This document shows positions 9,835 to 25,078 of a stretch of DNA of 37,277 bases, in pieces. Source of the stretch: Oscillochloris sp. ZM17-4 (lineage in GTDB: Bacteria > Chloroflexota > Chloroflexia > Chloroflexales > Chloroflexaceae); assembly GCF_019599295.1 (NCBI RefSeq), contig NZ_JAIEWN010000053.1:1-37277 (forward strand), given 5' to 3'. The notes below the pieces were generated by a model that had not been told where the DNA came from, did not search any database, and saw only the letters and a program-made list of their open reading frames with translations. Positions within the stretch are counted from its first letter, which is position 1; the number at the start of each line of letters is the position of its first letter. A program made the position numbers and the translations under genes.

Positions 9835-9893
9835 TGACAAGGTGACGGGGCGACAAGGTGGCAGTGTCACCTTGTCACCCCGTCACCCTGTCA
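9835..9893. repeat. Long inverted repeat with short direct repeats inside its arms
   Basis: Two 26-base arms (9835-9860 and 9868-9893) pair with only two mismatches around a seven-base loop. Each arm is built from repeats of GACAAGGTG-like or GTCACC-like words. It lies between csmN (ending at 9914) and the flavoprotein gene (starting at 9759), so on the minus strand it is a strong terminator-like hairpin after csmN. It has no T-run. Confidence 0.7.
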
Positions 9894-9913
9894 GCCGCCC
9901 ATTATAGGCCGAG

Positions 9914-10769: not shown

Positions 10770-11702
10770 TCATCCGAAATAGCCACCGACAAGGAACGCC
10801 GAGACTAACTGGATTAGCGCTACGAATGGGTTGCTTGCGATCAGGTAGCGCATGAAGTTTTTGTGGTTAGGTTCCTGATAGAGCTTGACCTGGCTATAGA
10901 TTGGTGCGACGAGCGCAAAGAGGATGAACGCCGCCACCCAGTAACTGCCCCAGAGGATCGCCAGCACCATCAGGAGCGCCTCAAAGCCATTGATTACCCC
11001 ATAGGCGACGATCAGGGTCTTCTGCACTCCAATGGCCACTGCAAGGGACTGGAGCCCGTGCTGGCGGTCGCCCTCAACGCTTTTAATATCGTTGAGCAGG
11101 AGCAGCCCGGCGGTAAGGCCGCCGTTAAAGCAGGCTACCGTAACGCTCTGCCAAGTAACCGGCGCGAATATCAGATGGCCTGCGATCCAGCTGATGCTTA
11201 CATAGCCAATTCCCACCGCAGGTGGCCCCAGCCAGTAGTTCTTCTTCAGCTTGATCGGCGGCACGCTATAGATCACCGAGATGATGATCCCCAACACGGC
11301 GAGGGTGGTGATCAGCGGGTTGCCGAACAGCAGCGAGATCAGGAACGACCCTGCGCCGAGGATGATCCAGTTCATCCGTGCGCCAGCCAGACTCACCAGC
11401 CCGGCCGGGATAGGTCGTGACGGATCATTGATCGCGTCGATCTCGCGGTCGTAATAGTCATTGATGCTTTGGCTAAAGCCGGTGCCGAGCGGGCCGATCA
11501 TCAGGGCCCCGAGCATAGCCAGCCCCCATTGTCGACCGCTTGCCCACTCGAAGCCTCCAGCCTGTGCTGAGGAGGCGATCGCACCACAGATACACATCAT
11601 CGCCGGCGAGATCCAGGTTATTGGATCGGCCAGTTCGATATGCGCCCTGATACGCTTGGCGAGGGGCACCTGTTGCTCAGAAGTCGTGATCATATCGCCC
11701 AT
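10770..11702 (-). CDS. bchK: Bacteriochlorophyll c synthase (UbiA family prenyltransferase)
   Basis: This 310-residue membrane enzyme of the ChlG/BchG/BchK group joins an isoprenoid alcohol to the C-17 propionate of a bacteriochlorophyllide. The first prenyl-diphosphate motif NDYYDREIDAINDPSRP starts at N81; the second is NDIKSVEGDRQHG. About eight or nine hydrophobic helices are visible. ChlG, BchG and BchK cannot be separated by these motifs alone. BchK is preferred because the gene sits between bchU, which is specific for BChl c/e-type pigment, and csmM/csmN. Only two bases separate it from bchU, so the two are translationally coupled. Confidence 0.85.
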   Translation of the reverse strand: MGDMITTSEQQVPLAKRIRAHIELADPITWISPAMMCICGAIASSAQAGGFEWASGRQWGLAMLGALMIGPLGTGFSQSINDYYDREIDAINDPSRPIPAGLVSLAGARMNWIILGAGSFLISLLFGNPLITTLAVLGIIISVIYSVPPIKLKKNYWLGPPAVGIGYVSISWIAGHLIFAPVTWQSVTVACFNGGLTAGLLLLNDIKSVEGDRQHGLQSLAVAIGVQKTLIVAYGVINGFEALLMVLAILWGSYWVAAFILFALVAPIYSQVKLYQEPNHKNFMRYLIASNPFVALIQLVSAFLVGGYFG

Positions 11703-11704
11703 TG

Positions 11705-12793
11705 TTACGGCTTCACGGCCTGGTAGAGCACGTAATCGTAGGCCTCGTTCACGGTCACATCCGTGAAACCCACATTGCGTAGCACATCGTGGTAGATCGC
11801 GTGGTCCTTAAAGTCGAGGACCGAGAAGCCCATGCTGATCGAGCAGATATAGTGGGTCAGGTAGTCGTAGTTAGGCTTCTCAGGGTCGCTGATGATCATA
11901 TCGATGATCAGCACGCGCCCGCCCGACTCAAGGGCGTCGTAGGCCTTCTTGAGCAGCATGGTGCAGAACTGCGCGTTCATCGGGTAGAGGATGCGCCCGA
12001 AGAGGACGGCATCGCTCTGTGGGTACGCGTCCTTATACATATCAACGGCGACGGGGCTGATTCGATCTGCCAGACCGCGAGAGGCGACGTTCTCCGACAC
12101 GAGATCGAGGGCGCTCGGCAGGTTGATCAGGGTGACGTTGAGATCCGGGAAGCGCTCGCACATCGCGGATGCGATATCGCCGATGCCGCCGCCGACATCG
12201 AGCAGCCGGGTCACGCCATCAAGCTTGGCGTGCTCGCGCAGCAGCCGGATTGGGAAGTGCACATTGCTGCGGTGGATCGTCTCGTAGAAGACGTTGTCCT
12301 CGCGGGTGCGCGGCGGGTACGGCACCATGCTGGTGAAGTCCGTCTTGCCGCGGACGACATCGGCCAGGTTCACGTAGAAGGTCTGCACTAGGCTGCTGAT
12401 ATAGTCTACGAAGGGCACCATCGTCAGATTGCGGTGGTGCTCGGCGTCGGTGAAGAACTGCACCGCGAAGGGGGTGAGCGCCCATCCGCCCTCAGCCTGT
12501 CGGGCGACGCCGATCTCCTTCAGCGTGATCAGGAACTTCTCTAGGCGCATCGGCACGGTGCCGGTGGCCTCGGCGAGCGCGCCGAGATCGCGCGTCTCAT
12601 CGCCCATCGCGGCAAAGAGGCCCAGGTCGGTGGCTGCTTTGATGGCGAAGAAGTCAACGGTGCCTTTGAAGACCATGTCATAGGCCCGCTCGGTGCCTGC
12701 AAACAATGTGTCTTCATCCTGGCCACAGCGGCAGCCAGGGGTGCAGGGGGTTTTCGTAACTGCCGGAGCCTCTTGAAGGGTAACGCTGTCCAT
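11705..12793 (-). CDS. bchU: Bacteriochlorophyllide C-20 methyltransferase
   Basis: BchU uses S-adenosylmethionine to methylate C-20 of bacteriochlorophyllide d, committing the cell to BChl c. The 362-residue protein follows the Chlorobaculum enzyme along its length: a helical dimerisation and winged-helix N-terminus, YPPRTREDN, IHRSN and the SAM site LLDVGGGIGDIASAM. The Tyr of RILY and the His of DYLTHY correspond to the residues placed near the pigment in the known BchU structure. An N-terminal extension of about 35 residues with three cysteines (CTPGCRC) is not part of the Chlorobi proteins I recall. The start is uncertain between 12811 and 12793. A good promoter lies upstream (12858-12885). 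Confidence 0.95.
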   Translation of the reverse strand: MDSVTLQEAPAVTKTPCTPGCRCGQDEDTLFAGTERAYDMVFKGTVDFFAIKAATDLGLFAAMGDETRDLGALAEATGTVPMRLEKFLITLKEIGVARQAEGGWALTPFAVQFFTDAEHHRNLTMVPFVDYISSLVQTFYVNLADVVRGKTDFTSMVPYPPRTREDNVFYETIHRSNVHFPIRLLREHAKLDGVTRLLDVGGGIGDIASAMCERFPDLNVTLINLPSALDLVSENVASRGLADRISPVAVDMYKDAYPQSDAVLFGRILYPMNAQFCTMLLKKAYDALESGGRVLIIDMIISDPEKPNYDYLTHYICSISMGFSVLDFKDHAIYHDVLRNVGFTDVTVNEAYDYVLYQAVKP

Positions 12794-12857
12794 CAATAAT
12801 CGCTTTCTCATGAGTAGATAATTCGCCGCTCAGGTATCTCCCACACCATGTATTTGT

Positions 12858-12949: not shown

Positions 12950-13639
12950 TCAGCGCAGAACCTTGCCCCACAAGGCCAATCCCTCTTGATCGCCATACCA
13001 AGGTCGCCCATGAAAGGGCGAGTGTGAGACACCTTGAACCGCCAGGTACTCGGCACCGCTCAGCGCCGCGCACTCCAGGGTACTAATCCCATCGCCCCAA
13101 GCCTCCAGGAAGCTTGGCCCAGAGACGGTACTATAGCTCGTGCTCGACATCCGCTCGATGAGTGTGCCGCGTGGGTTGCCTTGGATCGCCCGACCAACGA
13201 CAGAGGTGTAGCGCACCTCGGGGTAGAAGGCTCCGGGGTATGTGCTGTTTACAAAGCCGACCGACTGGCGTGTCCAGTGCTCCTGGCTGTGGTGGGGTGT
13301 CCCGAGCATCGTTAGGCGGCGCACATAGCGGTGCCCCCCGTACACCTCGCCCTTATAGGGCTGTTCGCCCATGTACATACGCGCCACCATCCCGCCGACG
13401 CTATGGGCCAGGATATCGACCTGCTCAGCCCCGCTGGCGCTCAGGGCCTGCTCAACCGTGGCGCGGACAATCGCAATCACCTTGCGAAAGTCCCAGTCGC
13501 GCGTGATCAGCCAGCGTGTCCGGCTGATCGGTGCGATAAAGGTCTGGTACCCATAGGGCGATGTAGACAGCAGCTGTGCCAGCGGGGCGAAGTCGTTAGG
13601 GCTTGTGAGATACCCTCCGATAATAACAAGTGGGCGCAT
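12950..13639 (-). CDS. Lipase-like alpha/beta hydrolase (paralogue of the next gene upstream)
   Basis: The 229-residue serine hydrolase opens with RPLVIIGGYL and has S80 in LAHSVGG, D183 in WGDGIS and H206 in GVSHSPFHG as a probable triad. TPHHSQEHWTRQ and NSTYPGAFYPEVRY are further conserved blocks. These features match, from memory, a PGAP1/triacylglycerol-lipase-like family common in cyanobacteria and plastid-containing plants. It is about 40% identical by eye to the 227-residue protein encoded immediately upstream, so the two arose by duplication. No signal peptide is present. Ester bonds in the neighbourhood include the bacteriochlorophyll alcohol tail and the wax esters of the chlorosome envelope, so either could be the substrate. 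The ATG at 13639 is chosen because it starts the fold; no good ribosome site is visible. Confidence 0.82.
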   Translation of the reverse strand: MRPLVIIGGYLTSPNDFAPLAQLLSTSPYGYQTFIAPISRTRWLITRDWDFRKVIAIVRATVEQALSASGAEQVDILAHSVGGMVARMYMGEQPYKGEVYGGHRYVRRLTMLGTPHHSQEHWTRQSVGFVNSTYPGAFYPEVRYTSVVGRAIQGNPRGTLIERMSSTSYSTVSGPSFLEAWGDGISTLECAALSGAEYLAVQGVSHSPFHGRPWYGDQEGLALWGKVLR

Positions 13640-13692
13640 AGTATTGGGGGGCATCGAGGGCGGTTGGTCCGGTGCCCCCGATGCGAATGAGA

Positions 13693-14376
13693 TCAGCCTT
13701 CGAACCACAGCGGGATAACATTGCGGGCACCATACCAGATGCCTGGTGCGTTATAGGGGGCGTGGCGGGCCCCCTTCAGCACAAGGTTATCGGCACCATC
13801 CAGGTAGCAGCAGATCGTGGGGATGATTCCGTCGCCAATCTGCTCGCCGGTTCCAAACGACGTCTCATACGAGCGATAGGCCAGCATCTGCTCGGGACTG
13901 CCGAATCGCTTGCCATGCACACTCTCGCCAGCAACGGAGCGGTAGGCGATATGGTCGTAAAAGGCACCGGGGTAAGACTGGTTTACATAACCAGCGAACT
14001 CCTTCACCCAGATCTCATAGGTGTCGTGGGCAGTGCCAAGGCTGGTGAGGCTTGCCACATAGCGCTGGCCGTCATAGGTGACACCGGCGTAGGGCAGATG
14101 GCCGAGGTAGGCGCGGGCGACGCGTCCTCCCGCGCTGTGGCCGATCAGATCAACCCGATCCGCCCCAGTCTCGCTGAGCGCAAGCGCAATCGTGCGTGCT
14201 ACAAGGTCGAGCGCCGGTGTGAAGTGTGGGTCACGTAGGCTCGCCCACTCTCTGCGGCTAATATCGGTGATATAGACGATGCGGTTGTAGGGCGGCGCGG
14301 CGAGGGTGCGGGCCATCCCGGCGTAGTCGGCAGGCGATGAGAGCCACCCACCCACGATTACAACTGGCCGGCTCAT
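13693..14376 (-). CDS. Lipase-like alpha/beta hydrolase (tandem paralogue)
   Basis: The 227-residue paralogue of the following gene opens with SRPVVIVGGWL. The probable triad is S81 (GHSAGG), D182 (GDGIIP) and H205 (GARHAPYN). Blocks shared with its neighbour include GxRYV, SLGT and NQSYPGAFYDHIAY. The His pair of TPHHSQ in the neighbour is AHDTY here, so the two copies have diverged around the acyl pocket and probably accept different esters. The neighbour begins about 53 bases after this stop. It follows the Pro/Ala-rich protein gene after a hairpin at 14464-14489 and is cytoplasmic by sequence. Confidence 0.82.
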   Translation of the reverse strand: MSRPVVIVGGWLSSPADYAGMARTLAAPPYNRIVYITDISRREWASLRDPHFTPALDLVARTIALALSETGADRVDLIGHSAGGRVARAYLGHLPYAGVTYDGQRYVASLTSLGTAHDTYEIWVKEFAGYVNQSYPGAFYDHIAYRSVAGESVHGKRFGSPEQMLAYRSYETSFGTGEQIGDGIIPTICCYLDGADNLVLKGARHAPYNAPGIWYGARNVIPLWFEG

Positions 14377-14463
14377 AGGGTACTCATTTCACCGAAGACA
14401 GCCCTAGATTCAGGGCACAGCCGGCACCCAGGGCTTCTTCTGTTTGTACAGCTATGGGAGGGG

Positions 14464-14489
14464 CTCAGGGAGGGCCGAGCCTCCCTGAG
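14464..14489 (-). terminator. Hairpin downstream of the Pro/Ala-rich protein gene
   Basis: CTCAGGGAGG (14464-14473) pairs with CCTCCCTGAG (14480-14489) around a six-base loop, 40 bases after the stop at 14529. No T-run follows. It may attenuate transcription from the csmA side before the lipase pair. Confidence 0.4.
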
Positions 14490-14528
14490 TATCACCGCCC
14501 AATGCATCAGAACGAGATGTCCAGCGTT

Positions 14529-15401
14529 CTACTTCTTTCCCTTGCCACCGGAGTTAGGCGCGTCCTTAGGCCCTTTTGTGGCGGAGTCAGGGGCTTTAGC
14601 TTCTCCAGGCTTCGCCTTGTCGGTCGCCTGGGCGACCGGTGCGGGATGCGTGGCCGATGCGGGCGGTGTAGCTGATGCGGCTGGCGTGGGTGGTGTGGCC
14701 GCTGTGACTGGCGCGGGCGCTGCAGTCGGTGTAGGAGATGTGGCCGCTGCAGTCGGTGTAGGAGGTGTGGCCGACGCATTATTGCCGTTGCCGTTGCCGT
14801 TGCCGTTGGCAACGGTCACGGTGATCCGGCGGGCAGGCCCAGCTGAATGATGGCTGCTCGTCGGCAGCATATTGCTGACAGTTCGCAGTATCTCGCCCCC
14901 AAAGCGGAAGATATCTTCAGTCTGAAACCGTGCCCAGTGGGTGTAGAGATTCCAGACATCGGTGCTGGTTGCGCGAACCTCTTTTGAGAACGCCTCAATC
15001 CCCTGTGGCGGGAGCATGCCGTGAATACTTGCGCGCAGCAGGTATGTCACTGGCTGAATGCCATCAGACGATCCGGACGGCCCCATCAGGCTCGGGCCGG
15101 CGCTCGCAGTGTCTGGCGTAGGGCGTGGGGCCGGGGGCGGCGGAGGAGTCATCCCGCCGGAGGGCGGGGCGAACCCGCCGGATGGCGGGGCATAGCTCTC
15201 CATATTTGAGGCCTTGAATGTCGGCTCGCTCGGCGATGACCACGTTGCCCGAGCGGTGCTCGACGGTGCGGAGGCGAAGCTTGGCGCGCCCGTCGAGCTC
15301 GACGCATTGCCAGATGTCTCGTCGTAGGTAAGGTTCAGAAATCGGCGGAGAAAACCCGGCATCCAGCTGTACGGGTTGTTGTCCTCATCATACTTGGCCA
15401 T
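14529..15401 (-). CDS. Pro/Ala/Ser-rich protein of the chlorosome locus, function unknown
   Basis: The 290-residue protein has a short ordered start (NPYSWMPGFLRRFLNLTYDE), a disordered Ser/Pro/Gly-rich stretch (about 30-105), one compact helical segment (about 113-175, containing YLLRASIHGMLPP and NLYTHWARFQTEDIFRFGG) and a long low-complexity tail of NG, TPPTP and AAA units ending in a Lys-rich GKGKK. The tail is coded by real DNA repeats: a 27-bp unit at 14719-14772 and a CCGTTG hexamer run at 14785-14808. AGAGG precedes the ATG. It sits inside the chlorosome operon and may be a chlorosome surface or assembly protein; I recognise no family. Confidence 0.75.
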   Translation of the reverse strand: MAKYDEDNNPYSWMPGFLRRFLNLTYDETSGNASSSTGAPSFASAPSSTARATWSSPSEPTFKASNMESYAPPSGGFAPPSGGMTPPPPPAPRPTPDTASAGPSLMGPSGSSDGIQPVTYLLRASIHGMLPPQGIEAFSKEVRATSTDVWNLYTHWARFQTEDIFRFGGEILRTVSNMLPTSSHHSAGPARRITVTVANGNGNGNGNNASATPPTPTAAATSPTPTAAPAPVTAATPPTPAASATPPASATHPAPVAQATDKAKPGEAKAPDSATKGPKDAPNSGGKGKK

Positions 15402-15450
15402 AGCACTACCTCTTTGTGTAAACGATGGCGTGTCACGCCGAACGATACAG

Positions 15451-16335
15451 CTAGCCTAGCGCGAGCATCCGCCGTCGCTGGCGGGTATGCGGCGCAAAGC
15501 AGAAATCGATTATTTGATCGAGATCATCATTCGGGTAGCGCCGATCAAGGGTGGAGATCGACTCTAGCACATAGGTGAACTGCTCGGGCGTGATCTCGTG
15601 TGAGCATTGTACGACCTGCTCAAGGATGTGACGCCGATAGCTCAGGCTATAGCGAAGCGTGACAGCGGCGATATGGTTGAGCATAGCGTCACGTAGATCG
15701 AGGTTATCGCTATAGCGCTTGAGCCAGCGACCCAGCCCAAAACGCTCACTTTTATCGAGGTAGAAATTCACCAGATCGGAGAGGCCAACGTCATTCGTCA
15801 GGGAGACGATCTCGCCCCATCGCTTTGTGAAGGATTGGCGGGAGAATGCGGAGAGCTCACAGAGCTGGTTGATCAAGTTGCTGGCCGTATAGTATGGCTC
15901 ACGCTCGAATGTGCGGCGCAGGCCCGCCTCGCGCTCAGCGAGCAGTGAGAGCGCCTCGCGGAGCACGCCATCGCTACTATCGTAGCCGCCGCTGCGCATG
16001 TGCATCTCATGTGCCAGCTCGTGGAGTGCGATCCCGACGCTGCCATCTTCGTCCCAGCGACCAAGGCTGACAACCGATCCGCTCGCTGGTGAGAAGCTCC
16101 CGCTATCGCTCCAGGGGCTCATGATAACACCGCCCTCAAGTGCCTCAAAGATCAGGCGCTGCTCAAGGATACCGGGGGCGAGATCGGTGCCCCACATTTG
16201 AGTCGCCAGACGGCGCACCTTACGGGCTATCTGCAAGGGGCGATAGGTGTACTCGCCGATCACCACCGACTGATCGCCGGCCCGCTCCATATCTATCGCC
16301 ATGCGCTGGCCGCCTGAGCGGAGATGCAGTTGCAT
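15451..16335 (-). CDS. Putative zinc metalloprotease (HExxH) of the chlorosome locus
   Basis: The 294-residue soluble protein has a zincin motif HELAHE (H105, E106, H109) followed by a second acidic helix (REALSLLAERE, E127/E134) that could give the third zinc ligand of a gluzincin. The rest is helical, with no signal peptide or membrane segment. I do not recognise the family beyond the motif. AGGGGG lies five bases before the ATG, and the gene starts two bases after the upstream hydrolase stop, so they are coupled. CsmA of Chloroflexus is made with a C-terminal extension that is later removed, and no protease is assigned to that step in the window. This protein is the obvious candidate, by inference only. 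Confidence 0.78.
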   Translation of the reverse strand: MQLHLRSGGQRMAIDMERAGDQSVVIGEYTYRPLQIARKVRRLATQMWGTDLAPGILEQRLIFEALEGGVIMSPWSDSGSFSPASGSVVSLGRWDEDGSVGIALHELAHEMHMRSGGYDSSDGVLREALSLLAEREAGLRRTFEREPYYTASNLINQLCELSAFSRQSFTKRWGEIVSLTNDVGLSDLVNFYLDKSERFGLGRWLKRYSDNLDLRDAMLNHIAAVTLRYSLSYRRHILEQVVQCSHEITPEQFTYVLESISTLDRRYPNDDLDQIIDFCFAPHTRQRRRMLALG

Positions 16336-16337
16336 GA

Positions 16338-17339
16338 TTACCCCCTTACACCGCGGAGAAAGAGGCGCAGGATCTGCGTCACTTGCTCGGGCAGTTCAAA
16401 TAGGATGAGGTGCCCACACTTGGGGACTTCCAGGTAGGTGCCCTGTTGGGCCACGCTCATGAGCTTACGCCCTCCAGATGGGCGCATAATCGGGTCGCCG
16501 GCACCGGAGACGAGCAGGGTTGGGTGTGGCACCCTGCGCATTTGATCTGGCACCGCGTCGAGCACCTCGCGGCGTGCCAGCTCGTGGGCCGATACGCGCA
16601 CCGCTTCAGGGTCGCAGCAGCGCAGGCTGAGTGCGCCGAGCTTGATGTCGCCGACGGGCGGTGTGTTCTGGGCTAGCACTAGGCGCGCATAGATAAATGG
16701 GAGCCACCACAGCCCGCGCCGTGTGATCGGCCGCAGCAGCCGATTGAAGACGGTGTCGAGCAGGGGCGGGATGAACACCGAGGCGACCCGGCTGTGGGAG
16801 ATCTGGCTAAAGTTAAAGAAGGTCAGCGAGCGCACCTGGTCGGGGTAAGTGGCCCCATAGTGGAGTGCGACGAACGCGCCGAGCGAGAAGGCGGCCACGT
16901 GGTGTGGCCTGAGGCCGAGCGCTATGCCGAGGGCGTGGAGATCGCTGCTGAAGCCCTCCACCGTGTAGCCGCGCGCGGGGTCACTGTCGGAGAACCCGTG
17001 GCCCTTCAGGTCGTAGCTGATCACTCGGTAGCCGGCGGCGGCCAGCGGCTCGACAATATGGTGCCACCAGAGAGCCGAGCAGTCCCAGCCGTGGATCAAC
17101 ACAAGCGGCTCGCCACCCCGAGGTCCAATATCCTGGTAGTGGTGGACGATCCCATTCAGCTCGATGAACTGCGCTTTGCTGAGCAGGGCTCGTTCGTGTT
17201 CAAGGCGTCGCCGCTCGCCCTGACTGAGCTTACCTGCCAGCTTCGTCACGATCTCGGCGCTATACTCCTGGTACTTCTGCGTGCTGCGTGTGGCGTGTAG
17301 CGTGTTGAGTTGAGGCATCTCCACGACCTGACCATTCAT
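16338..17339 (-). CDS. Alpha/beta-fold hydrolase of the chlorosome locus
   Basis: The 333-residue protein has a charged helical N-terminus of about 60 residues and then an alpha/beta hydrolase domain. The oxyanion motif is HGWD (about 83-86), the nucleophile S152 lies in AFSLGAF (the usual first Gly is Ala), the acid is D282 in GAGDPIM and the base H310 in KCGHLILFE. GGAGG lies six bases before the ATG. It lies two bases from the HExxH gene and 52 bases after the pseudo-ArsA gene, so it belongs to the same transcript. It is not closely related to the two lipase-like proteins further down. A pigment or wax ester substrate is possible; the sequence does not decide. Confidence 0.85.
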   Translation of the reverse strand: MNGQVVEMPQLNTLHATRSTQKYQEYSAEIVTKLAGKLSQGERRRLEHERALLSKAQFIELNGIVHHYQDIGPRGGEPLVLIHGWDCSALWWHHIVEPLAAAGYRVISYDLKGHGFSDSDPARGYTVEGFSSDLHALGIALGLRPHHVAAFSLGAFVALHYGATYPDQVRSLTFFNFSQISHSRVASVFIPPLLDTVFNRLLRPITRRGLWWLPFIYARLVLAQNTPPVGDIKLGALSLRCCDPEAVRVSAHELARREVLDAVPDQMRRVPHPTLLVSGAGDPIMRPSGGRKLMSVAQQGTYLEVPKCGHLILFELPEQVTQILRLFLRGVRG

Positions 17340-17391
17340 TGCCAACCTCCGTGAAGAGCTGCGCGAATCGCTCAACACTTCTAGCTCAGCA

Positions 17392-18492
17392 CTACTCAAC
17401 CCACAGCCGCAGTACCTCACCCTCGACGCGGGCGCGTAGGCGTCCGCCCTCGATCAGGCCAGGCAGCAGCAGATGGCGTCGCAGCTGCCCTATGCGCACC
17501 GCCACCTCCTCATTGGCCACGGCGATGTCGAGAGCCTTTGCGTCGAGGAAGGGGATAGACAGGCGCACCTCACGCTCGGCACCGTGGGGGTGTGGCGCGG
17601 GCGTGCCGATATCGCCGTCGCGGTAGAACGCGGCACCACGGAGCGCCCATGTGTCGCGGTCGGTCGGGGAGGTTGGCAGCGGACTGATATGCAATGTGGG
17701 GCGCGCCGGGCCGCCCTCGGGGCCGAAGGTATGGCGCGTCTCGAGGCTCACGTCTGCCGGCTCAGCGGGCACGATGATCTCGTCCACGGCGATGCCGTAG
17801 AGACCCAGGGCGACCAAGTTGTCTCGCACTGGGGGCAGGTGCAGCTCCTCGGGGCTCATCACCAGCCGCACCCGCGCCCCGGTCGATGCATCGAACCTGT
17901 TGCGATACTCCTCAAACTCGACGCGCAGATCCTGGAGCGGTGCGGTTGTGCTGGAAGGGATGATCGCTCCAGGGACGATCGCTGCGTCCTGCGACGTACG
18001 CGATCGTCCGGGGCCGCGGTCGAGCCCAAAGACCAGCCGGAGCAGCCAGCGCATGGTGTCGGACAGGGCCAACCCGCGGATGAGGTCGTCGGGAGCGGGG
18101 CCATCGATAATAAGCAGGTCGAAGCGACCGGTCTGTCGAGCACGTTCGGCCACCATCAAGGTGCTGATCGCATCCATGCCAGGAAAGCTCGGCAGCTCAT
18201 CGCTGGTAATGTCGCGCAGGCGTGCGGCCAGCCCGCTGCGCAGTGTCGGTCGCAGGAGATCCCAGCGTGAGCCGAGCTCATCGAGCGGGCCGATCTCGAG
18301 CGCGGCCAAGTTCGGCTCTAGCTCAAGGGGGCGGGGGCCAAGGTTCTGACCGAGCAGCGCCCCGATCAGATGACTGGGGCCGAACGATGCGAGCAGGACG
18401 CGCTGACCTCGCCGCGCAGCATGGCATGCGGTGGCTAGCGCGGCGGCGCTACGCTGGAGCATCGTGTGGCCGGAGAATATCAGCAATCGCAT
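17392..18492 (-). CDS. Degenerate ArsA/Get3-family protein (probable pseudo-ATPase)
   Basis: The 366-residue protein keeps the overall ArsA layout of its two neighbours: an N-terminal P-loop-type domain, RVRLVMSPEELHL matching RLVLNPEKLPL, and a C-terminal alpha-crystallin-like domain with LSIPFLDAKALDIA. All nucleotide motifs are lost. The Walker A position reads SGHTMLQRS instead of SGKGGTGKTT, SFGPSHL replaces the switch I SSDPAHSL, and IDGPAPDDLIR replaces the switch II DTAPTGNTLR. The frame is intact over its full length, so this is not a decayed gene. It follows a canonical ArsA gene across a hairpin and may form a heteromer with an active ArsA. The start at 18492 is set by alignment of the first beta strand; no ribosome site is seen. 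Confidence 0.82.
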   Translation of the reverse strand: MRLLIFSGHTMLQRSAAALATACHAARRGQRVLLASFGPSHLIGALLGQNLGPRPLELEPNLAALEIGPLDELGSRWDLLRPTLRSGLAARLRDITSDELPSFPGMDAISTLMVAERARQTGRFDLLIIDGPAPDDLIRGLALSDTMRWLLRLVFGLDRGPGRSRTSQDAAIVPGAIIPSSTTAPLQDLRVEFEEYRNRFDASTGARVRLVMSPEELHLPPVRDNLVALGLYGIAVDEIIVPAEPADVSLETRHTFGPEGGPARPTLHISPLPTSPTDRDTWALRGAAFYRDGDIGTPAPHPHGAEREVRLSIPFLDAKALDIAVANEEVAVRIGQLRRHLLLPGLIEGGRLRARVEGEVLRLWVE

Positions 18493-18509
18493 GGTGAGTG
18501 TTGAGGGTT

Positions 18510-18563
18510 GAGGGTTGCGTGCTGCGCGTTGAGCGATCAATGCTCGCGCAGCACGCAACCCTC
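18510..18563 (-). repeat. Inverted repeat built of short tandem repeats between the two ArsA genes
   Basis: A perfect 19-bp stem (18510-18528 with 18545-18563) has a 16-base loop. The left side is preceded by further copies of TTGAGGG. It begins four bases after the stop of the active ArsA gene and ends 18 bases before the pseudo-ArsA start, so it may reduce expression of the latter. It belongs to the same kind of repeat-built hairpin as 37173-37238 and 9835-9893. Confidence 0.7.
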
Positions 18564-18566
18564 GTT

Positions 18567-19814
18567 TCAGGCTGCTTCGACGCGCATATTATCGGCGGGC
18601 TCGGGCGCACGCTCAGATCTCCGCTTCCCGCCGGGGGCCTCGAAGAACTCTAGTCGGAGCACGCCATCCTCATAGCGGTGATTGCCGAGCGTACACTCAT
18701 AGAGGATTCGTGGGAGGGCGATAGTGCGCTGGAGACGGCCAACCGTGACTGTCAGGTCGGTGCCGTCGCGCGCAAGATCCACCGGGTCATCATCATCAAT
18801 GAATGGCAGGCGCAGGCAGAGGTCAAACAAGCCTGGCTCCCCCTCATCATTCCACTGGTCGAGCCAGATCGGCCGCTCGTCAAACAGCATCGCGCCGGGA
18901 TCCGTATCGCCGAAGGTCGCATGGGCAATCGCATCAAGGGCGGCGATCCCGATCGGCTCGCCCTCCTGGAGCACCGTGCGGAAGATCGGCGTCGGCGCAA
19001 AGCTGCCGTCGATCTCGTGGAGGTAGCCTTGCTGTAGTTTGACCCAGTAGTCGAAGTAGGGTCCAAGGTCGGCGCGTCGTGGCAGGATCTTATTCACCAT
19101 CACCGCGTCGAGCATCAGGCCGTAGAGGTTGATGAAGGTGTAGGCGCGGCGCGTCTCCATGAGCGGCAGCTTCTCAGGGTTGAGCACAAGCCGGAGGCTC
19201 ACCTCGGGGCTGAGCAAGAAGTTTGCCAGCTGTTCCATGCGCTCCAGGAGCGTGCCGACCTCATCGAAGAAGCGATCTTCGGGAAGATCGCGGCGGAAGG
19301 GGCGGGCGACATTGGCCAACCCGCGGTAGACGCGAAAAAACTTCTTGCCCGCATCGCCGCCGATGATCAGCTCGGGGTAGGCGAGGAGGCGGAGCGTATT
19401 GCCGGTGGGCGCGGTATCGAGGACGATCGCGTCCCAGCGACCGCTTTGGGCCTCAGCCATCACCCGCTGGAGGGCGAGGATCTCATCAAGCCCTGGCTGA
19501 TTCGCCAGTTCAGCGGCGGTCGATCGCTCAACGCCACGGTTGGAGTAGGTCGAGGTGACGAACTGCTGGAATCCGCTCAGATTCTGACGCCACTCGTAGA
19601 TAGTATCGACCTCAAGGCCGTAGAGACATGGGGCGATAGGCGTGGGACGATCGCGGCTGATCTCCGTCCCGAGGGCATCGGCCAGAGAGTGGGCGGGGTC
19701 GCTAGAGAGCACGAGCGTCCGCCGCCCCATGCTGGCGAGCATAGTAGCTGTAGCGGCCGAGATCGTGGTCTTGCCTGTGCCGCCCTTACCTGAGTAGATA
19801 ATGACTCGCGTCAT
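18567..19814 (-). CDS. ArsA/Get3-family ATPase with C-terminal HSP20-like domain (second copy)
   Basis: The 415-residue cytoplasmic ATPase has the deviant Walker A SGKGGTGKTT at residues 8-17 (signature Lys in GKGG), switch I SSDPAHSLADAL, and switch II in LDTAPTGNTLRLL. The conserved LRLVLNPEKL and VNKILPRR strands follow, and then a C-terminal ArsA-type alpha-crystallin/HSP20-like domain (about 325-395). Bacterial single-domain ArsA proteins of this type resemble Get3, which shields hydrophobic membrane segments. No arsB, arsR or arsD lies nearby, so an arsenic role is unlikely. AAGG lies just before the ATG. It is the middle of three ArsA homologues in the operon. Confidence 0.92.
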   Translation of the reverse strand: MTRVIIYSGKGGTGKTTISAATATMLASMGRRTLVLSSDPAHSLADALGTEISRDRPTPIAPCLYGLEVDTIYEWRQNLSGFQQFVTSTYSNRGVERSTAAELANQPGLDEILALQRVMAEAQSGRWDAIVLDTAPTGNTLRLLAYPELIIGGDAGKKFFRVYRGLANVARPFRRDLPEDRFFDEVGTLLERMEQLANFLLSPEVSLRLVLNPEKLPLMETRRAYTFINLYGLMLDAVMVNKILPRRADLGPYFDYWVKLQQGYLHEIDGSFAPTPIFRTVLQEGEPIGIAALDAIAHATFGDTDPGAMLFDERPIWLDQWNDEGEPGLFDLCLRLPFIDDDDPVDLARDGTDLTVTVGRLQRTIALPRILYECTLGNHRYEDGVLRLEFFEAPGGKRRSERAPEPADNMRVEAA

Positions 19815-19840
19815 GGTGCCTTTCGGGTGCTCGCGCCCTC

Positions 19841-19882
19841 ACCCCCCGCCACCGACCCGCACGCGGATCGGCGGCAGGGGGT
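19841..19882 (-). terminator. Hairpin between the PH-like protein gene and the second ArsA gene
   Basis: An 18-bp stem (19841-19858 with 19865-19882) has three positions that are mismatched in DNA but can form G-U pairs in RNA, with a six-base loop. It lies seven bases after the stop at 19889. It has no T-run and probably acts as a partial terminator or an RNA-end protector inside the operon. Confidence 0.45.
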
Positions 19883-19888
19883 GCCGCA

Positions 19889-21364
19889 TTACTCTTCCTC
19901 GTCGACGCCTGCCGGCACGGCCCGTGGTGCGGGCTCTTGTCCATTTGGGGTGATCGCAAGTCGGCGTACGGGCACCCGGGATGCCGCAGATCGACGCACA
20001 GCGGGTGCCTCGGGCGCAGCGGCCTCGGGCGCAGCGGCCTCGGGCACAGCGGATGCCTCGGGCGCAGCGGCCTCGGGTGCCGGCACATCCGCCGGCGGCA
20101 CCACGCGGCGCACATTGATGCTACGACGCACTGGGCCAGTCGCTTCTGGCGCGACGGGCTGCGAGCCAGGGGTGGAGACTGGCTCCACCCCTGTAGACTG
20201 AGAGGAGGGCGTGAGTCGGGCGGTGGCCCGTACCTGAACGCGGCGGCGACTCGCTGCCTGGGCCTGGGCCTGGGCCTGGGCCTCTTCACTCTCTAGGGGC
20301 TCAGTGAAGCGCACGGCAGCGCGCACGATTGGGCCCACTGAGGCGAGGGGGCCATTCTCTGCCTCCTGCTGGGCTGCGGCCTGATAGATGCCGCGCATCG
20401 CATTGCGGCGCACCAGAGGGTTTTGCATCCCACTCATCAGATCACCGGCCCCGTTCATCATCTCTCCGGCGCGTCGCGCGCCTCTGACGAGGCGACGTGG
20501 CGCTTCGAGAACCAGCCGGAGCGAGCGGCTTACCTCATACATGCTCGGCTGCTCGGGCATCATCGGGGTGGAGCCAGCAGCCATTGAGGACATTGGGCCA
20601 GCCATTGGCAGCGCGGGCGTACCGTCACCGGCGGGCTGACCGCTGCGGCGGCTCTCGTAGTCGGCGATCAGGTTGCCGGTGCTGGGCATCCCCGCATTAT
20701 CCGCCTCGTTGGATTTGCGTTGCCACCAGCGTCGCCGGGGCTGATCCACGGGGTTGGGCGCTGGTGGAGGTGGCGGGGGCGGTGCCGCTGGCTCAGGCAT
20801 CATCGCGGCAAAGAAGGGCGAGAGGGCCGCGCGCTCGGGCGCAGGGAACTGCTCGGCGAACGCCTTCACGAGGGCCTCACCGGTCACGCCAGCGATGACC
20901 TGGTCGCCAGTCCAAGCGATCATGCTCGAAAGAGGGCCTACGTCATCAGCGGGCATATAGTCGAGGGTGTTGATAACGACCCGCTCGCCGCTGCCCGGAT
21001 CCTCCAGCGTACCCTTGAACGCAATGCGTCGGGTGCGCGGGGCGACGGCGGCCAGACGGAAGGCGAAGGTCACGCGTCCGTGCCAGGGATCCCAGGAGTC
21101 GGCCTTCGCCACATCGACATCCTGCCAGAGGAAGCTATCGACTGTGTCGTTGAAGAAGCCGCGCGCCCACATGACCAGCCGCTGGTCGGTGAGGGCGACA
21201 AAATCGCAGATAGCGACCCCCCCGATACGTCGGCGACTCTCGTCTAGCAGCACGCCATCGAAGAGCGCCAGCAGGGGCTCGTCCTCTTCGAGGATGCCAC
21301 GTTTGCGCAATTCATCTGCGCTAGCCAGATTAACATTGATGCCGAGGTATGGGTTCGTGCTCAT
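19889..21364 (-). CDS. PH-like-domain protein with long disordered tail (chlorosome locus, copy 2)
   Basis: The 491-residue protein has an N-terminal beta-rich domain of about 150 residues resembling bacterial PH/GRAM-like domains: ELRKRGILEEDEPLLALFDG, then ALTDQRLVMWARG and DPWHGRVTFAF. It is clearly paralogous to the protein encoded just upstream. A Pro run, a basic patch (RRRWWQRK) and a helical segment follow (about 295-385, SLRLVLEAPRRLVRGARRAGE and NPLVRRNAMRGIYQ). The tail is Ala/Pro/Glu-rich with QAQAQAQA and PEAAAPEA repeats. A disordered tail, a lipid-type PH fold and the position beside csmA make a chlorosome envelope protein likely, perhaps one of the less-studied CsmO/CsmP/CsmY class; I cannot say which. 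AGGAGG lies ten bases before the ATG. Confidence 0.78.
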   Translation of the reverse strand: MSTNPYLGINVNLASADELRKRGILEEDEPLLALFDGVLLDESRRRIGGVAICDFVALTDQRLVMWARGFFNDTVDSFLWQDVDVAKADSWDPWHGRVTFAFRLAAVAPRTRRIAFKGTLEDPGSGERVVINTLDYMPADDVGPLSSMIAWTGDQVIAGVTGEALVKAFAEQFPAPERAALSPFFAAMMPEPAAPPPPPPPAPNPVDQPRRRWWQRKSNEADNAGMPSTGNLIADYESRRSGQPAGDGTPALPMAGPMSSMAAGSTPMMPEQPSMYEVSRSLRLVLEAPRRLVRGARRAGEMMNGAGDLMSGMQNPLVRRNAMRGIYQAAAQQEAENGPLASVGPIVRAAVRFTEPLESEEAQAQAQAQAASRRRVQVRATARLTPSSQSTGVEPVSTPGSQPVAPEATGPVRRSINVRRVVPPADVPAPEAAAPEASAVPEAAAPEAAAPEAPAVRRSAASRVPVRRLAITPNGQEPAPRAVPAGVDEEE

Positions 21365-21436
21365 TAATCTACTACCTCCTAGGGCTGCTGCCGGGGGCTG
21401 GCTGGCGGCATAGGCCGTATCCACAGACCCATCGCG

Positions 21437-22597
21437 CTATCTGCCATCGTCAACATCGGCGTCGCCGGAGCCGCTGATGGGGATGGGGGCACGGGGAAAT
21501 GGTCGGGGGTTCGCGCTTGCTGGCCCTCGGCGACGCAGCGGGATCTCACGGCGGTCAGGGGCCATCTGTGGGGCGGCCTTCGGCGCGGTGGCGGCGGCCT
21601 TCGGCACAGTGGCGGCGGCCTTCGGCGCGGCGGCGGCCATTGGCGCGGCGGCGACGGAGTCCTCACGGCGGCGCAGTGGGATCTCGTGATAGGTGCCGGC
21701 CACCGGTGCCGGCATCTCCTCGGGCTGCGCGGTGGCGGCGGCGACCGGGCTCTCGGGAGCGCTGGGGGTGCCACGCCCGCCCTGTCGGTTGATAAACGCC
21801 ATCGCCATCTGCTGGGCGGCGGGGTTGCTCGTCACCGTCTGCACGAGGTCGTTCACCGCGCGGACCGTATCGGTGAGCTCACGCAGGCTGGTGTTATTCA
21901 GGTCGAAGGGTAGTTCGGCCTCGCGCAGCGAGCGGCGCAGCGCATCCCATGCGGAGCGGGCCAGTCGGCCGGCGGCGTAGATCTTCTCAGGTGGCAGCGA
22001 CGCTGCGTCTTGGGCGAAGCCCGGGGCGGGTGTCAGCGGCGGCTGCACGGGTGCTCCGGGCCAGCGATAGGGCGTCTCTCCGGGGCGCGTTCCATCGACA
22101 TGCCCATAGATCTGCTCACCGAGCACCGAGAGAATCTCGGGCCCAGCCTCGCGTGCGCTCACTCCGGCAGCGATGAGCTCTCGGGCAGCACCAGCGGCGC
22201 TGCGGATGAGGGTCAGCGCGGCCTGAAGACTCGCGAGGGGCAGCAAGGTCAGCGTGAAGCTCTGCTCATCATCTTCGTCATCGGATGCGAGGAATGTGAG
22301 TGCGATCTGGGCGTGAAGCGGATCGAGCCCGGTGCCCTGCGCTGATTCGAGCTCTGCGAGCGGGAACGCGTAGCAGGTGTGGCCGCCGTAGTCGCGCGCC
22401 CAGAGCATGATGCGCAGCGTTGTTACGAGGCAGTAGTCATGGAGCGTAGGTCCGCTCAAGCGATGTCCGGCTGAGTCGAGCAGCACGCCGTCGAGCGCGA
22501 CGAGCACCTGCTCATCACGCTCCAGCAATCCCAGGGTCTCAAGCTCTTCGAGGTGGGCTGGGACAACCGTATGGCTATAGTAGAGCAGGTTGATCAT
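21437..22597 (-). CDS. PH-like-domain protein with repeat tail (chlorosome locus, copy 1)
   Basis: The 386-residue paralogue of the following gene shares the N-terminal PH-like domain: ELETLGLLERDEQVLVALDG, then LRIMLWARDYGG and DPLHAQIALTF. A helical middle (about 205-275) contains YAAGRLARSAWDALRRSLRE and PAAQQMAMAFINRQGG. The tail has EIPLRRR twice and a seven-residue KAAAT(V/A)P unit coded by 21-bp DNA repeats near 21570-21645. It lies directly after csmA and may be a chlorosome structural or baseplate-anchoring protein. No ribosome site is visible before the ATG at 22597, and the upstream sequence can fold with the csmA 3' end, so translation may be kept low relative to csmA. Confidence 0.76.
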   Translation of the reverse strand: MINLLYYSHTVVPAHLEELETLGLLERDEQVLVALDGVLLDSAGHRLSGPTLHDYCLVTTLRIMLWARDYGGHTCYAFPLAELESAQGTGLDPLHAQIALTFLASDDEDDEQSFTLTLLPLASLQAALTLIRSAAGAARELIAAGVSAREAGPEILSVLGEQIYGHVDGTRPGETPYRWPGAPVQPPLTPAPGFAQDAASLPPEKIYAAGRLARSAWDALRRSLREAELPFDLNNTSLRELTDTVRAVNDLVQTVTSNPAAQQMAMAFINRQGGRGTPSAPESPVAAATAQPEEMPAPVAGTYHEIPLRRREDSVAAAPMAAAAPKAAATVPKAAATAPKAAPQMAPDRREIPLRRRGPASANPRPFPRAPIPISGSGDADVDDGR

Positions 22598-22612
22598 GAG
22601 GGTACTAGGGTA

Positions 22613-22689
22613 TAGGATACAGGGGGAGGGGATTGAGTGCAGTGAGGCGGTATGCCAAGCTGTCCCCATCCACTGTCCCCTGTATCCTA
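22613..22689 (-). repeat. Inverted repeat in the 3' region of csmA
   Basis: TAGGATACAGGGG (22613-22625) pairs perfectly with CCCCTGTATCCTA (22677-22689), with a 51-base interior that itself holds repeats of CTGTCCCC. It begins eight bases after the csmA stop, where a strong stem could protect the csmA message and limit read-through. Confidence 0.6.
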
Positions 22690-22697
22690 CGGCCCAA

Positions 22698-22943
22698 CTA
22701 GCGATTGAAGCGCGAGCGGATGCGCTTCGGGCGGAAGCTGCTCACGGCGGGCGTGCTGTAGGCACCCTCACCGCTGCCGCTGCGAGCGATGCCAGGGTAG
22801 GCATTGCGGTTGATGGTCTCTACCGCCGCCGACGTCGCCTGCAGCGCGTTGGAGACCCACTGCCAGTGTCCCTGGAACATGATGTCGCCGATCTGCGCCA
22901 CCTGCCCTGCGGACTCCGAGAACCAGCCTCGTGTCACGGCCAT
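22698..22943 (-). CDS. csmA: Chlorosome baseplate protein CsmA (precursor)
   Basis: CsmA forms the paracrystalline baseplate that binds bacteriochlorophyll a and passes energy from the chlorosome to the membrane. The 81-residue protein has the diagnostic block RGWFSESAGQVAQIG followed by FQGHWQWVSNALQA and INRNAYPG. H26 in GHWQW is the expected BChl a ligand. Residues beyond about 51 (GIARSGSGEG to the Arg-rich end) correspond to the C-terminal extension that is removed in Chloroflexus. AAGGAGGTG six bases before the ATG is a near-perfect ribosome site, as expected for an abundant protein. The 68-base gap after the ArsA gene has a short GC hairpin (22987-23001) and a TATAAC on the minus strand (22976-22981), so an extra promoter is possible. 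Confidence 0.97.
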   Translation of the reverse strand: MAVTRGWFSESAGQVAQIGDIMFQGHWQWVSNALQATSAAVETINRNAYPGIARSGSGEGAYSTPAVSSFRPKRIRSRFNR

Positions 22944-23011
22944 CTAACACCTCCTTAAGTAACCAGGACTCTCACGTTATAGGCCACGGGGCGGTGCCCC
23001 GGTAACCCCGA

Positions 23012-24211
23012 TTATTGTGCGACCCCCACGGCCGCGCTGAAGGGCACGATCAGCCAGTCGTCTTCCATCTCGGCCTGGCCTGCCTCAAGCCCGGCCAGGC
23101 TGACCGGCAGCGTAAGGATGCGCCGGAAGTCGCCGATCTGTACCACGAGCTCATCGCCGTTCTGAAACAGGTCGAGCTGGCTAACATTGGCGAAGGGCAG
23201 CCGGATCTTCACCTGGTAGTTCCCGTCGGACACCTTGGAGATGTCTAGCGGCGCCTCTTTGTAGACAAGCGCCGTCGGGTCGGTGTCGCCATAGATATTG
23301 AGGCCCATCACGCGCAGCTTCTCCAGGCCCACCACCTCTTCGGCGTAGTAGGGCACGTGGTAGATAGGCAGCGGGTTAAACGAGTGCTGCACTTCCTGGA
23401 GGTAGCGCTGCTGCACATCCTTCCAGTGATTGAGGTAGCCGCTGTCCTGGTCGACCGGCAGAATCTTATTGACCACGACCGTATCGACCGTCATCCCGTA
23501 CATCGAGAGGTAGGTGAAGGCGCGCTGGCTCTCTTTGATCACCATCTTCTCGGGGTTCATCACCAACCGCACTGAAGTCTCCAACGGGTTGGTCAGCGTC
23601 TGGGTGACGCCAACCATCTGCTCGAACATATTGTCGACAGCCTCGTAGACCTCGGTCGGGGCGATCATCTTGCCGAGCATGGGGTTGATCTTGCTCATGG
23701 GCCGCAGCAGCGGCTTGATCACAAACTTCTCGGCGCCGCGGAGCATGCCCATGGCCCACTTGAAGGTCTCGGGCGCCGAGAGGAGGCGCAGGGTCTCGCC
23801 GGTGGGGGCGCAGTCGATCACCAGCAGGTCGTAGTCGCCCGCTTCCTTATGCTTCGTGATGCGGATGAGCGGGAATGCCTCCTCCATACCGGGGAGGACG
23901 CTCATCTCATCGGCCAGGATTCCCTGCACGCCCTGCTCGGCCATCAGCTGCGAGAAGTGCTCTCGCACAATGCCCCAGTTCGACTCGATGTCGTGGTAGA
24001 TGCTCACCTCAAGGGCGTCAAGGGTCGGGGTGATATGTACCGGCTCGGGCCCGAGCGGCCCTTCGAGATCGAGCGAGTCTGCCAGGCTGTGCGCCGGGTC
24101 GGTGCTCATGATGAGCGTGCGCAAACCCATGTCTGCGGCTCGAAGCGCGGTCGCCGCTGCGACGCTGGTCTTCCCCACGCCGCCCTTACCCGTAAAGATG
24201 AGAGTACGCAT
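23012..24211 (-). CDS. ArsA/Get3-family ATPase with C-terminal HSP20-like domain (first copy)
   Basis: This 399-residue ATPase is the first gene of the chlorosome block. The Walker A is TGKGGVGKTS (7-16), switch I is STDPAHSLADSL and switch II is in IDCAPTGETLRLL. RLVMNPEKMVI and VNKILPVDQ follow, with a C-terminal alpha-crystallin-like domain from about 305 (IRLPFANVSQLDLF to WLIVPF). A central Met-rich helical part (about 155-200, with WAMGMLRG, MSKINPMLGKM and MFEQM) resembles the client-binding region of Get3-type proteins. csmA follows after 68 bases. Its place ahead of the baseplate gene suggests a role in delivering or folding chlorosome proteins; that is inference. The start is set by AAAGGG just upstream of the ATG. 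Confidence 0.93.
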   Translation of the reverse strand: MRTLIFTGKGGVGKTSVAAATALRAADMGLRTLIMSTDPAHSLADSLDLEGPLGPEPVHITPTLDALEVSIYHDIESNWGIVREHFSQLMAEQGVQGILADEMSVLPGMEEAFPLIRITKHKEAGDYDLLVIDCAPTGETLRLLSAPETFKWAMGMLRGAEKFVIKPLLRPMSKINPMLGKMIAPTEVYEAVDNMFEQMVGVTQTLTNPLETSVRLVMNPEKMVIKESQRAFTYLSMYGMTVDTVVVNKILPVDQDSGYLNHWKDVQQRYLQEVQHSFNPLPIYHVPYYAEEVVGLEKLRVMGLNIYGDTDPTALVYKEAPLDISKVSDGNYQVKIRLPFANVSQLDLFQNGDELVVQIGDFRRILTLPVSLAGLEAGQAEMEDDWLIVPFSAAVGVAQ

Positions 24212-24360: not shown

Positions 24361-24644
24361 AATGATTGTAGCTGCTCCCTGGCTGTGATGCAATAGTACC
24401 ACGATTGTGGGGCAGTGTCAACCAAAATTGCTCATATGAACGGGCTATGGCTAAGGCTGATTGCGCCGCTCTAATGCGTCGAATCTGCTCAGAAGCTGTG
24501 CATGGCGCAGTGCGTAATGTGTCGGCCCATGACATTATTTCCCGCATTCCGCGTCGATCATTCCCCCTCAGATCGCCGCAGGACCACGCGGGAGTAGGTG
24601 GCTGACGTTGTATGATTTGTAAGGGCTGCCCCCTCGCGCCATCG

Positions 24645-24653
24645 TGCTACAAT
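24645..24653 (+). promoter_or_regulatory. Extended -10 promoter of the truncated haemoglobin gene
   Basis: TGCTACAAT fits an extended -10 (TGn plus TACAAT at 24648-24653), 47 bases before the ATG at 24701. The same nine bases precede coaBC at 35931. No good -35 is seen. Confidence 0.5.
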
Positions 24654-24700
24654 GCCCGTGCAGAGCGCAGCCGGTCTATGAAGTGGATTATATCAATTCT

Positions 24701-25078
24701 ATGACACGTGAGATCAGCGTCTACGAGCATGTCGGTGGCGCGGAGACATTTCGTCGCCTGGTGGATTACTTCTACGCCCAGGTCGAGCGCGATCCGCTGC
24801 TGCGCCCGCTCTTCCCAGACGACCTTGGCCCGGGCAAAGAGTACCAGTACCTCTTCCTGATGCAGTACTTTGGTGGCCCAGGAGAGTACGGCCAGATCCG
24901 CGGGCACCCCCGCCTGCGGATGCGCCACGCCCCCTTTGTGATCGGGCAGGCGGCGCGCGATGCCTGGCTGGGCCATATGCTCGCCGCCGTCGATGCGGTC
25001 GGGATCACGGAGCCCGCCCGGTCGATGATGCGCAGCTACTTTGAGAGCGCGGCCACAGCGATGATGAACGCACGATGA
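24701..25078 (+). CDS. Group II truncated haemoglobin (trHbO-like)
   Basis: The 125-residue globin has the 2-on-2 fold landmarks: Tyr24 at the B10 position (DYFYAQV), the FP(D) turn after helix B/C, the proximal His76 in LRMRHAPF and W89 at G8 (DAWLGHM), which marks group II. These proteins bind O2 or NO in the cytoplasm and are common in Chloroflexota. The ATG at 24701 begins the globin fold; the upstream in-frame ATG at 24644 overlaps the promoter. It is a single gene ending in a hairpin that overlaps its stop codon. Confidence 0.93.
   Translation: MTREISVYEHVGGAETFRRLVDYFYAQVERDPLLRPLFPDDLGPGKEYQYLFLMQYFGGPGEYGQIRGHPRLRMRHAPFVIGQAARDAWLGHMLAAVDAVGITEPARSMMRSYFESAATAMMNAR

Follow-up and report, generated by a model that had tools for sequence, protein, structure and literature searches.

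Get3d-type ATPases and PH-fold proteins encoded with csmA as candidate chlorosome biogenesis machinery

CsmA has been described as the sole chlorosome protein that is common to phyla (PMC9316378), the others as poorly conserved (PMC10972752), and the process by which chlorosomes are formed is debated, i.e., budding and aggregation models have both been put forward (PMC9316378). Here, we describe the csmA locus of Oscillochloris sp. ZM17-4, found in a 37,277-nucleotide stretch of DNA (contig NZ_JAIEWN010000053.1, referred to as the window), where csmA is part of a block of genes that includes three ArsA/Get3-type ATPase homologues (ArsA1, ArsA2 and ArsA3) and two proteins with a PH-like domain (PH1 and PH2). 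All genes of the block are located on the minus strand with intergenic gaps of -16 to 152 bp, and in the direction of transcription their order is ArsA1, csmA (68 bp downstream of ArsA1), PH1, PH2, ArsA2, ArsA3, a hydrolase, two proteins without a Pfam family, two hydrolase-like proteins, bchU, bchK, csmM and csmN (Table 1). In all chlorosome-bearing groups examined, whatever the reaction-center type, csmA is accompanied by two gene families of this block, namely those of a Get3d-type ATPase and of a PH-fold protein.

A first-pass annotation of the window had pointed to three ArsA/Get3-type homologues in the chlorosome operon, which is borne out by the Pfam ArsA_ATPase matches, all far over the cut-off of 24.3 bits. 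The count of two full copies and one degenerate copy also stands, but the HSP20-like domain (PF17886, a C-terminal alpha-crystallin domain) is not limited to the full copies, as then thought, because ArsA3 also has one; the match is over the cut-off of 22.5 bits in all three proteins.

Table 1. Genes of the csmA block in the window (BChl, bacteriochlorophyll; aa, amino acids)
Feature	Position	Strand	Evidence
ArsA1, Get3d-type ATPase, first gene of block	23012-24211	minus	Pfam ArsA_ATPase 309 bits, ArsA_HSP20 78 bits
csmA, chlorosome baseplate protein	22698-22943	minus	PF02043 Bac_chlorC 95 bits
PH1, PH-like domain and disordered tail	21437-22597	minus	homology to PH2; 20/20 loci
PH2, PH-fold domain (N-terminal ~160 aa) and disordered tail with repeated RR(K)-x-I-x-I/V motifs	19889-21364	minus	AlphaFold model
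ArsA2, ATPase	18567-19814	minus	Pfam ArsA_ATPase 229.5 bits, HSP20 62 bits
ArsA3, catalytically degenerate ArsA/Get3d-fold protein (pseudo-ATPase)	17392-18492 (ORF to 18558)	minus	77 bits, HSP20 30.8 bits
Alpha/beta hydrolase of block	16338-17339	minus	Abhydrolase_1 91 bits; 20/20 loci
Conserved 294-aa protein of block	15451-16335	minus	20/20 loci; no Pfam family
Conserved low-complexity 290-aa protein of block	14529-15401	minus	19/20 loci; no Pfam family
Lipase/alpha-beta hydrolase-like	13693-14376	minus	weak Abhydrolase match, 25.7 bits (cut-off 25.8); 20/20 loci
Alpha/beta hydrolase	12950-13708	minus	Abhydrolase_1 27 bits; 20/20 loci
bchU, BChl c C-20 methyltransferase	11705-12811	minus	TIGR02716 508.6 bits
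bchK-type UbiA, BChl c synthase	10770-11702	minus	PF01040 131 bits; place after bchU as in C. aurantiacus
csmM (by position, size, conservation)	10383-10694	minus	20/20 loci; C. aurantiacus order bchK-csmM-csmN
csmN (by position, size, conservation)	9914-10336	minus	20/20 loci; C. aurantiacus order bchK-csmM-csmN

A set of 20 csmA loci from Chloroflexaceae was analyzed by comparing the open reading frames (ORFs) all-against-all. The part of the block that extends from ArsA1 to the hydrolases is kept in 19-20 of these loci with the same gene order, and bchU, bchK, csmM and csmN are present at 17-20 of them. Because the same gene order recurs in 20/20 loci, the arrangement is not a consequence of chance. 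At the level of genomes, csmA was identified in 29 of 61, every one in the family of the window (Chloroflexaceae), and in each of the 29 csmA is immediately preceded by ArsA1 in the same orientation, where the profile matches of the two genes are separated by 357-787 bases.

The reaction-center family Photo_RC (pufL/M) was found in 15 genomes without csmA, i.e., six Chloroflexaceae (G014, G018, G019, G022, G028 and G029), eight genomes of the Roseiflexaceae-like family f4, in which pufLM is fused, and G040. The six Chloroflexaceae, which are 85-97% complete and in which two genera are each represented twice with the same result, harbor neither ArsA1 nor ArsA2 nor a further paralogue, pa (see below), as seen from the full list of ArsA matches. 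For the f4 genomes, ArsA matches were listed down to about 227 bits, and the absence of ArsA2 is less certain there. The PH-like domain is present in the 29 genomes with csmA and in G036. The remaining 31 genomes lack it; G021, which belongs to these, is cut by a contig end next to ArsA1. G036 and G021, which lack csmA, were considered as exceptions and rejected as such; they are incomplete and were set aside, with contigs that end next to ArsA1 or PH1 (in G036, just beyond PH1). Because Chloroflexaceae that have a reaction center and lack csmA contain none of ArsA1, ArsA2 and the PH-like genes, these genes track chlorosomes, not phototrophy, which as a general correlate is rejected by the pufLM-positive, csmA-negative genomes. 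The same data bear on the view that the proteins are general redox or stress holdases, or a photosynthesis-wide chaperone, and that the linkage to csmA reflects co-regulation with phototrophy. An alpha-crystallin domain would suit such a role, and Get3d has been linked to photosynthesis as a whole (PMC10248533), but the absence of the genes from chlorosome-less phototrophs of the same family, together with the absence of the CxxC motif of redox-active Get3, makes this explanation very improbable.

The linkage extends to another order of the same class, Chloroheliales, where csmA is found 0.4 kb downstream of ArsA1 in both csmA-positive genomes (G317 and G427); G317 is probably ‘Ca. Chlorohelix’, judging from its kinship and remote csmA. 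Three csmA-less sister genomes from this order contain no full-length ArsA and thus neither ArsA1 nor ArsA2. A comparison of chlorosome-bearing and chlorosome-less Chloroflexota had been suggested in the first-pass annotation, and the absences in the six Chloroflexaceae and the three Chloroheliales genomes leave its idea of genes dedicated to the chlorosome unrefuted and, together with the ArsA1-csmA linkage, support it. From this distribution of sequences, the ArsA set very likely has a role that is specific to chlorosomes, and the place of this family beside csmA in each chlorosome-bearing lineage examined, combined with its absence from near relatives that are phototrophic but have no chlorosomes, suggests that it probably builds the chlorosome.

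The linkage also crosses phyla. In green sulfur bacteria, ArsA is located beside csmA at all of 73 csmA loci taken from a species-level genome collection, and likewise at 10/10 loci from ten genomes of divergent Chlorobia. Apart from cases cut by contig ends, the green sulfur loci contain two ArsA genes. The first is upstream in the order ArsA-csmC-csmA, where the identity of csmC as PF11098 was verified for one locus, and the second follows a PH-like gene at a distance of 1.6-3.4 kb downstream of csmA. Genes of the ArsA2 type with the signature GKGGTGKT are also found in green sulfur bacteria, and Chloroheliales harbor ArsA2 orthologues. Castillo and Saier (2010, PMC2963123) defined a cluster 11 of ArsA homologues composed of one protein each from only C. 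tepidum, Chloroherpeton, C. aurantiacus and Chloracidobacterium, i.e., from chlorosome bacteria of three phyla, with sizes of 436 aa in C. tepidum and 407 aa in C. aurantiacus. The latter is the size of ArsA2 in genome G032 and, from protein size and the order of the gi numbers, we infer that cluster 11 is the ArsA2 clade. Their clusters 8 and 11 both hold C. aurantiacus and C. tepidum proteins; the authors, who do not mention chlorosomes, obtained no hint of function from the gene context and regarded orthology within cluster 11 as unlikely. As a separate observation, green sulfur bacteria have another ArsA copy, 4-5 kb from a second PF02043 gene, which is csmE-like (L273:4910-5158 and 8806-9990; L276; L283).

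The nucleotide-binding motifs of ArsA1 (GKGGVGKTS, STDPAHSLAD and DCAPTGETLRL) are intact in 13/13 orthologues and those of ArsA2 (GKGGTGKTT, SSDPAHSLAD and DTAPTGNTLRL) in 12/12; the deviant Walker A sequence GKGGxGK[ST] is accordingly found in every member of these two groups and in 0/12 of the ArsA3 proteins. A motif check revealed no zinc-binding CxxC in ArsA1, ArsA2 or ArsA3. Both ArsA1 and ArsA2 are matched by TIGR00345 as well as by Pfam, and the structural model of ArsA1 (pLDDT 85, pTM 0.83) is nearest to NosGet3d (8egk, Z 29.4) over residues 1-394, including the alpha-crystallin domain; for the ATPase portion, archaeal Get3 is on a par with it (Z 29.2). The best PDB sequence match of ArsA3 is also NosGet3d (3igf, E 2e-16). 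The NCBIfam model Get3_fold_NosAFP yields 143 bits with ArsA1, which is below the 325-bit equivalog cut-off. The stretch corresponding to the client domain is more hydrophobic than that of archaeal Get3 (mean Kyte-Doolittle value -0.10, compared to -0.7).

The nearest known family of the ArsA set is Get3d, members of which display ATPase activity, have a hydrophobic chamber and bind transmembrane segments (PMC10248533). Features shared with Get3d (NosGet3d All4481, 8egk/3igf; AtGet3d At1g26090, 8elf) are the SIMIBI ATPase fold, a deviant Walker A sequence, the lack of CxxC and a single-domain protein of about 400 aa with the C-terminal alpha-crystallin/HSP20-like domain. In contrast to Get3d, the set encoded in the chlorosome block has several paralogues, one of which is catalytically dead; switch I, switch II and the A-loop are intact in ArsA1 and ArsA2 and degenerate in AtGet3d and NosGet3d; and the genes are located beside csmA and PH-fold genes and confined to chlorosome lineages. 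Cytosolic Get3/TRC40 (yeast Get3; archaeal 3zq6 and 3ug6) shares the fold, the P-loop, the switches and methionine-containing hydrophobic client helices, but differs in having the zinc CxxC and no alpha-crystallin domain; for the chlorosome-linked set, no partners of the Get1/2/4/5 kind are known, and the block encodes no tail-anchored client. With E. coli ArsA, the arsenical pump ATPase, the likeness is one of superfamily and name. A role as arsenite-export ATPases is founded on annotation only, the green sulfur copies having been interpreted in this way once the C. tepidum genome was available (as quoted in PMC11269200), and it is contradicted by several observations. Each protein has a single ATPase domain of about 300 residues instead of two in tandem; ArsA1 contains about one cysteine per protein, i.e., not the metal-site cysteines, and homologues without these cysteines cannot use the ArsA mechanism, according to Castillo and Saier (PMC2963123); and no arsB, acr3, arsR, arsC or arsD family was found with Pfam among the window ORFs scanned, in agreement with the earlier remark that the lack of ars genes makes arsenic export unlikely. 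On the basis of domain number, cysteines and gene context this role is effectively excluded, and we suggest that the arsenite-export annotation of these genes be corrected.

All 12 members of ArsA3 have lost the Walker A sequence (P-loop), and the catalytic residues are gone. Ratios of nonsynonymous to synonymous substitution rates (dN/dS) are 0.02-0.12 for ArsA1, 0.02-0.10 for ArsA2 and 0.02-0.15 for ArsA3, and the last of these ranges points to purifying selection, by which ArsA3 is maintained as a pseudo-ATPase; that it is a decaying pseudogene was rejected from the same values and the intact ORFs. A gene for an ArsA3-like pseudo-ATPase is also found in G022 (L268:10075-11355), which has a reaction center and no csmA, and where the rest of the block is absent; it may be what is left of a chlorosome locus that was lost. 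A second degenerate family, pc, which is sister to ArsA3, is found also in csmA-less Chloroflexaceae (L110:9261-10400, G000:C1:287671).

Two trees were calculated, one of 106 sequences and one careful tree, neither of which includes full-length cyanobacterial and plant sequences. In the former, ArsA1, ArsA2 and ArsA3 of Chloroflexaceae fall in separate groups, with a support of 100 for ArsA1 and ArsA3, while the ArsA2 group is resolved only when the relatives from Chloroheliales are counted in. In the careful tree, the ArsA1 proteins of Chloroflexaceae and Chloroheliales form a group (84/83) inside a clade (98/90) composed otherwise of green sulfur copies. A single, widespread chloroflexan ArsA that is located near csmA by chance was considered and rejected; the widespread copy is paralogue pb, found also in genomes without csmA and without reaction centers, and ArsA1 and ArsA2 are separate clades. 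Paralogue pa occurs in csmA-positive Chloroflexaceae and one Chloroheliales genome (L108:9789-10964, G000:C128:193788; L230) and in none of the six csmA-less Chloroflexaceae; it resides outside the csmA block and has no shared neighbors.

The two other proteins that accompany csmA, PH1 and PH2, have no Pfam match. The PH-like label that they had been given is supported by the AlphaFold model of the N-terminal domain of PH2 (pLDDT 86, pTM 0.81), which displays a seven-stranded barrel capped by a C-terminal helix and for which the best PDB matches are PH folds (Z 9-11.6), and by the homology of PH1 to PH2 (33% over 121 aa, E 3e-18). PH2 homologues adjacent to csmA were identified in Chloroheliales, where E values go down to 9e-25, and in green sulfur bacteria, with an E value of 1e-11, and an alignment of the domain across the three groups revealed five invariant residues. 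The disordered tail of PH2 contains three RR-x-I-x-V-like motifs, compared to a mean of 0.12 in shuffled tails, and the green sulfur homologues have three to six. The motifs, e.g., RRVQV, RRSINV, RRKKISI and RKKIQI (PH2 19889-21364 tail; L160:10498-12810; L138:10470-12047), occur in three to six copies, compared to 0.1-0.7 in shuffles, and are candidate multivalent binding motifs. The constant pairing of the ATPases with PH-fold proteins that have repeated basic-hydrophobic tail motifs would also be in line with a function of the ATPases in the positioning, anchoring or segregation of chlorosomes at the cytoplasmic membrane, similarly to MinD/ParA/McdA-type SIMIBI ATPases, with the PH-like proteins as membrane or partner adaptors. 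The ArsA proteins belong to the same SIMIBI superclass (weak ParA/MinD matches were obtained), but fold and sequence over the whole length place them with Get3/Get3d, not MinD/ParA, and both the client domain and the alpha-crystallin domain are retained. We therefore consider this function improbable.

The best explanation of the data is, in our view, a dedicated Get3d-type chaperone or targeting set that acts together with a PH-like adaptor in chlorosome biogenesis, a proposal that we hold with about equal belief and doubt. According to this proposal, ArsA1 and ArsA2 would form ATP-hydrolyzing dimers with a hydrophobic client chamber and the C-terminal alpha-crystallin domain, which would bind chlorosome components of hydrophobic or amphipathic character in the cytoplasm, i.e., envelope or baseplate proteins (CsmA and CsmM/N, for example), perhaps together with lipid, and hand them over to the chlorosome that is being formed at the membrane. 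The PH-fold proteins would be the membrane or partner adaptors, and ArsA3 may serve as a catalytically inactive partner or as a regulator, and may form a heterodimer with the adjacent ArsA2. As to delivery of the clients in the manner of Get3, we see the scales as evenly balanced.

A number of observations weigh against the proposal of a chaperone set. The block encodes no tail-anchored protein, i.e., the classical GET client is missing; CsmA is weakly hydrophobic, with a maximum 19-residue Kyte-Doolittle value of 0.19; no Get1/Get2-like receptor was identified, a genome-wide receptor search not having been made; the join of ArsA1 with the csmA-linked green sulfur copy is weak in the tree (53/18), such that strict orthology of the two is not demonstrable; and linkage would look the same for a chaperone, for a carrier of pigment or lipid and for a structural component. 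The earlier suggestion that the ATPases shield and target hydrophobic chlorosome proteins thus holds in part, where the Get3d fold and the hydrophobic client domain fit but the modest hydrophobicity of CsmA and the lack of a tail-anchored protein do not, and the mechanism is one that we infer. Because of these two discrepancies, the clients would be amphipathic envelope proteins (CsmM/N) or lipophilic small molecules.

The missing tail-anchored protein makes lipid or pigment cargo a serious rival. The ATPases would then transport small molecules of hydrophobic nature (BChl c or precursors of it, carotenoid, quinone or glycolipid), and the Get3d chamber would load pigment or lipid into the chlorosome. 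This function would be consistent with the co-purification of AtGet3d with molecules of about 750 ± 140 Da and with unidentified density held in the hydrophobic chamber of NosGet3d (PMC10248533), as well as with the presence in the block of bchU and bchK, which finish BChl c. However, Get3d binds transmembrane segments in vitro, and the tightest linkage seen in two phyla is that of csmA and the PH-like gene, not the bch genes; we regard small-molecule transport as unlikely.

More broadly, and tentatively, the chaperone set may be an ancestral, organelle-dedicated GET-like system, composed of Get3d-type ATPases and PH-fold membrane adaptors, that builds chlorosomes by delivering clients to a lipid-monolayer organelle, was co-inherited with csmA in Chlorobiota, Chloroflexales, Chloroheliales and probably Chloracidobacterium, and has a conserved pseudo-ATPase subunit in Chloroflexaceae. 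There are partial parallels to such a system. ArsA homologues encoded in gas vesicle clusters (PMC2963123) also tie an ArsA-family ATPase, with hsp20, to the biogenesis of a bacterial intracellular structure, but these are two-domain proteins of another clade and the structure is protein-walled. BagA and BagB of Mycobacterium (6bs3, “bacterial Get3-like A and B”) are a bacterial Get3-like paralogue pair that was solved together, but belong to another subfamily, with no chlorosome. The Get3d family has been reported in green sulfur and green nonsulfur bacteria in a paper from which the word chlorosome is absent (PMC10248533), and in the open-access literature, subscription literature and books being outside the search, we found no paper that ties Get3/ArsA or an anion-transporting ATPase to chlorosomes. 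The genes described here are thus named candidates for a chlorosome biogenesis machine, testable in C. tepidum, and Get3d, a family that persists in chloroplasts, gains a concrete bacterial context.

Other genes at the locus are also shared among the 20 Chloroflexaceae loci. Three alpha/beta-hydrolase-like and two no-Pfam proteins (12950-17420) are embedded in the block at 19-20 loci. In 18 loci, csmN is followed by a pyridine nucleotide-disulfide oxidoreductase (8587-9870 in the window), for which a relation to the SelD N-terminal family falls below cut-off. Roughly half of the csmA loci also contain a bacterial globin gene (24644-25078 in the window), which is divergent from ArsA1.

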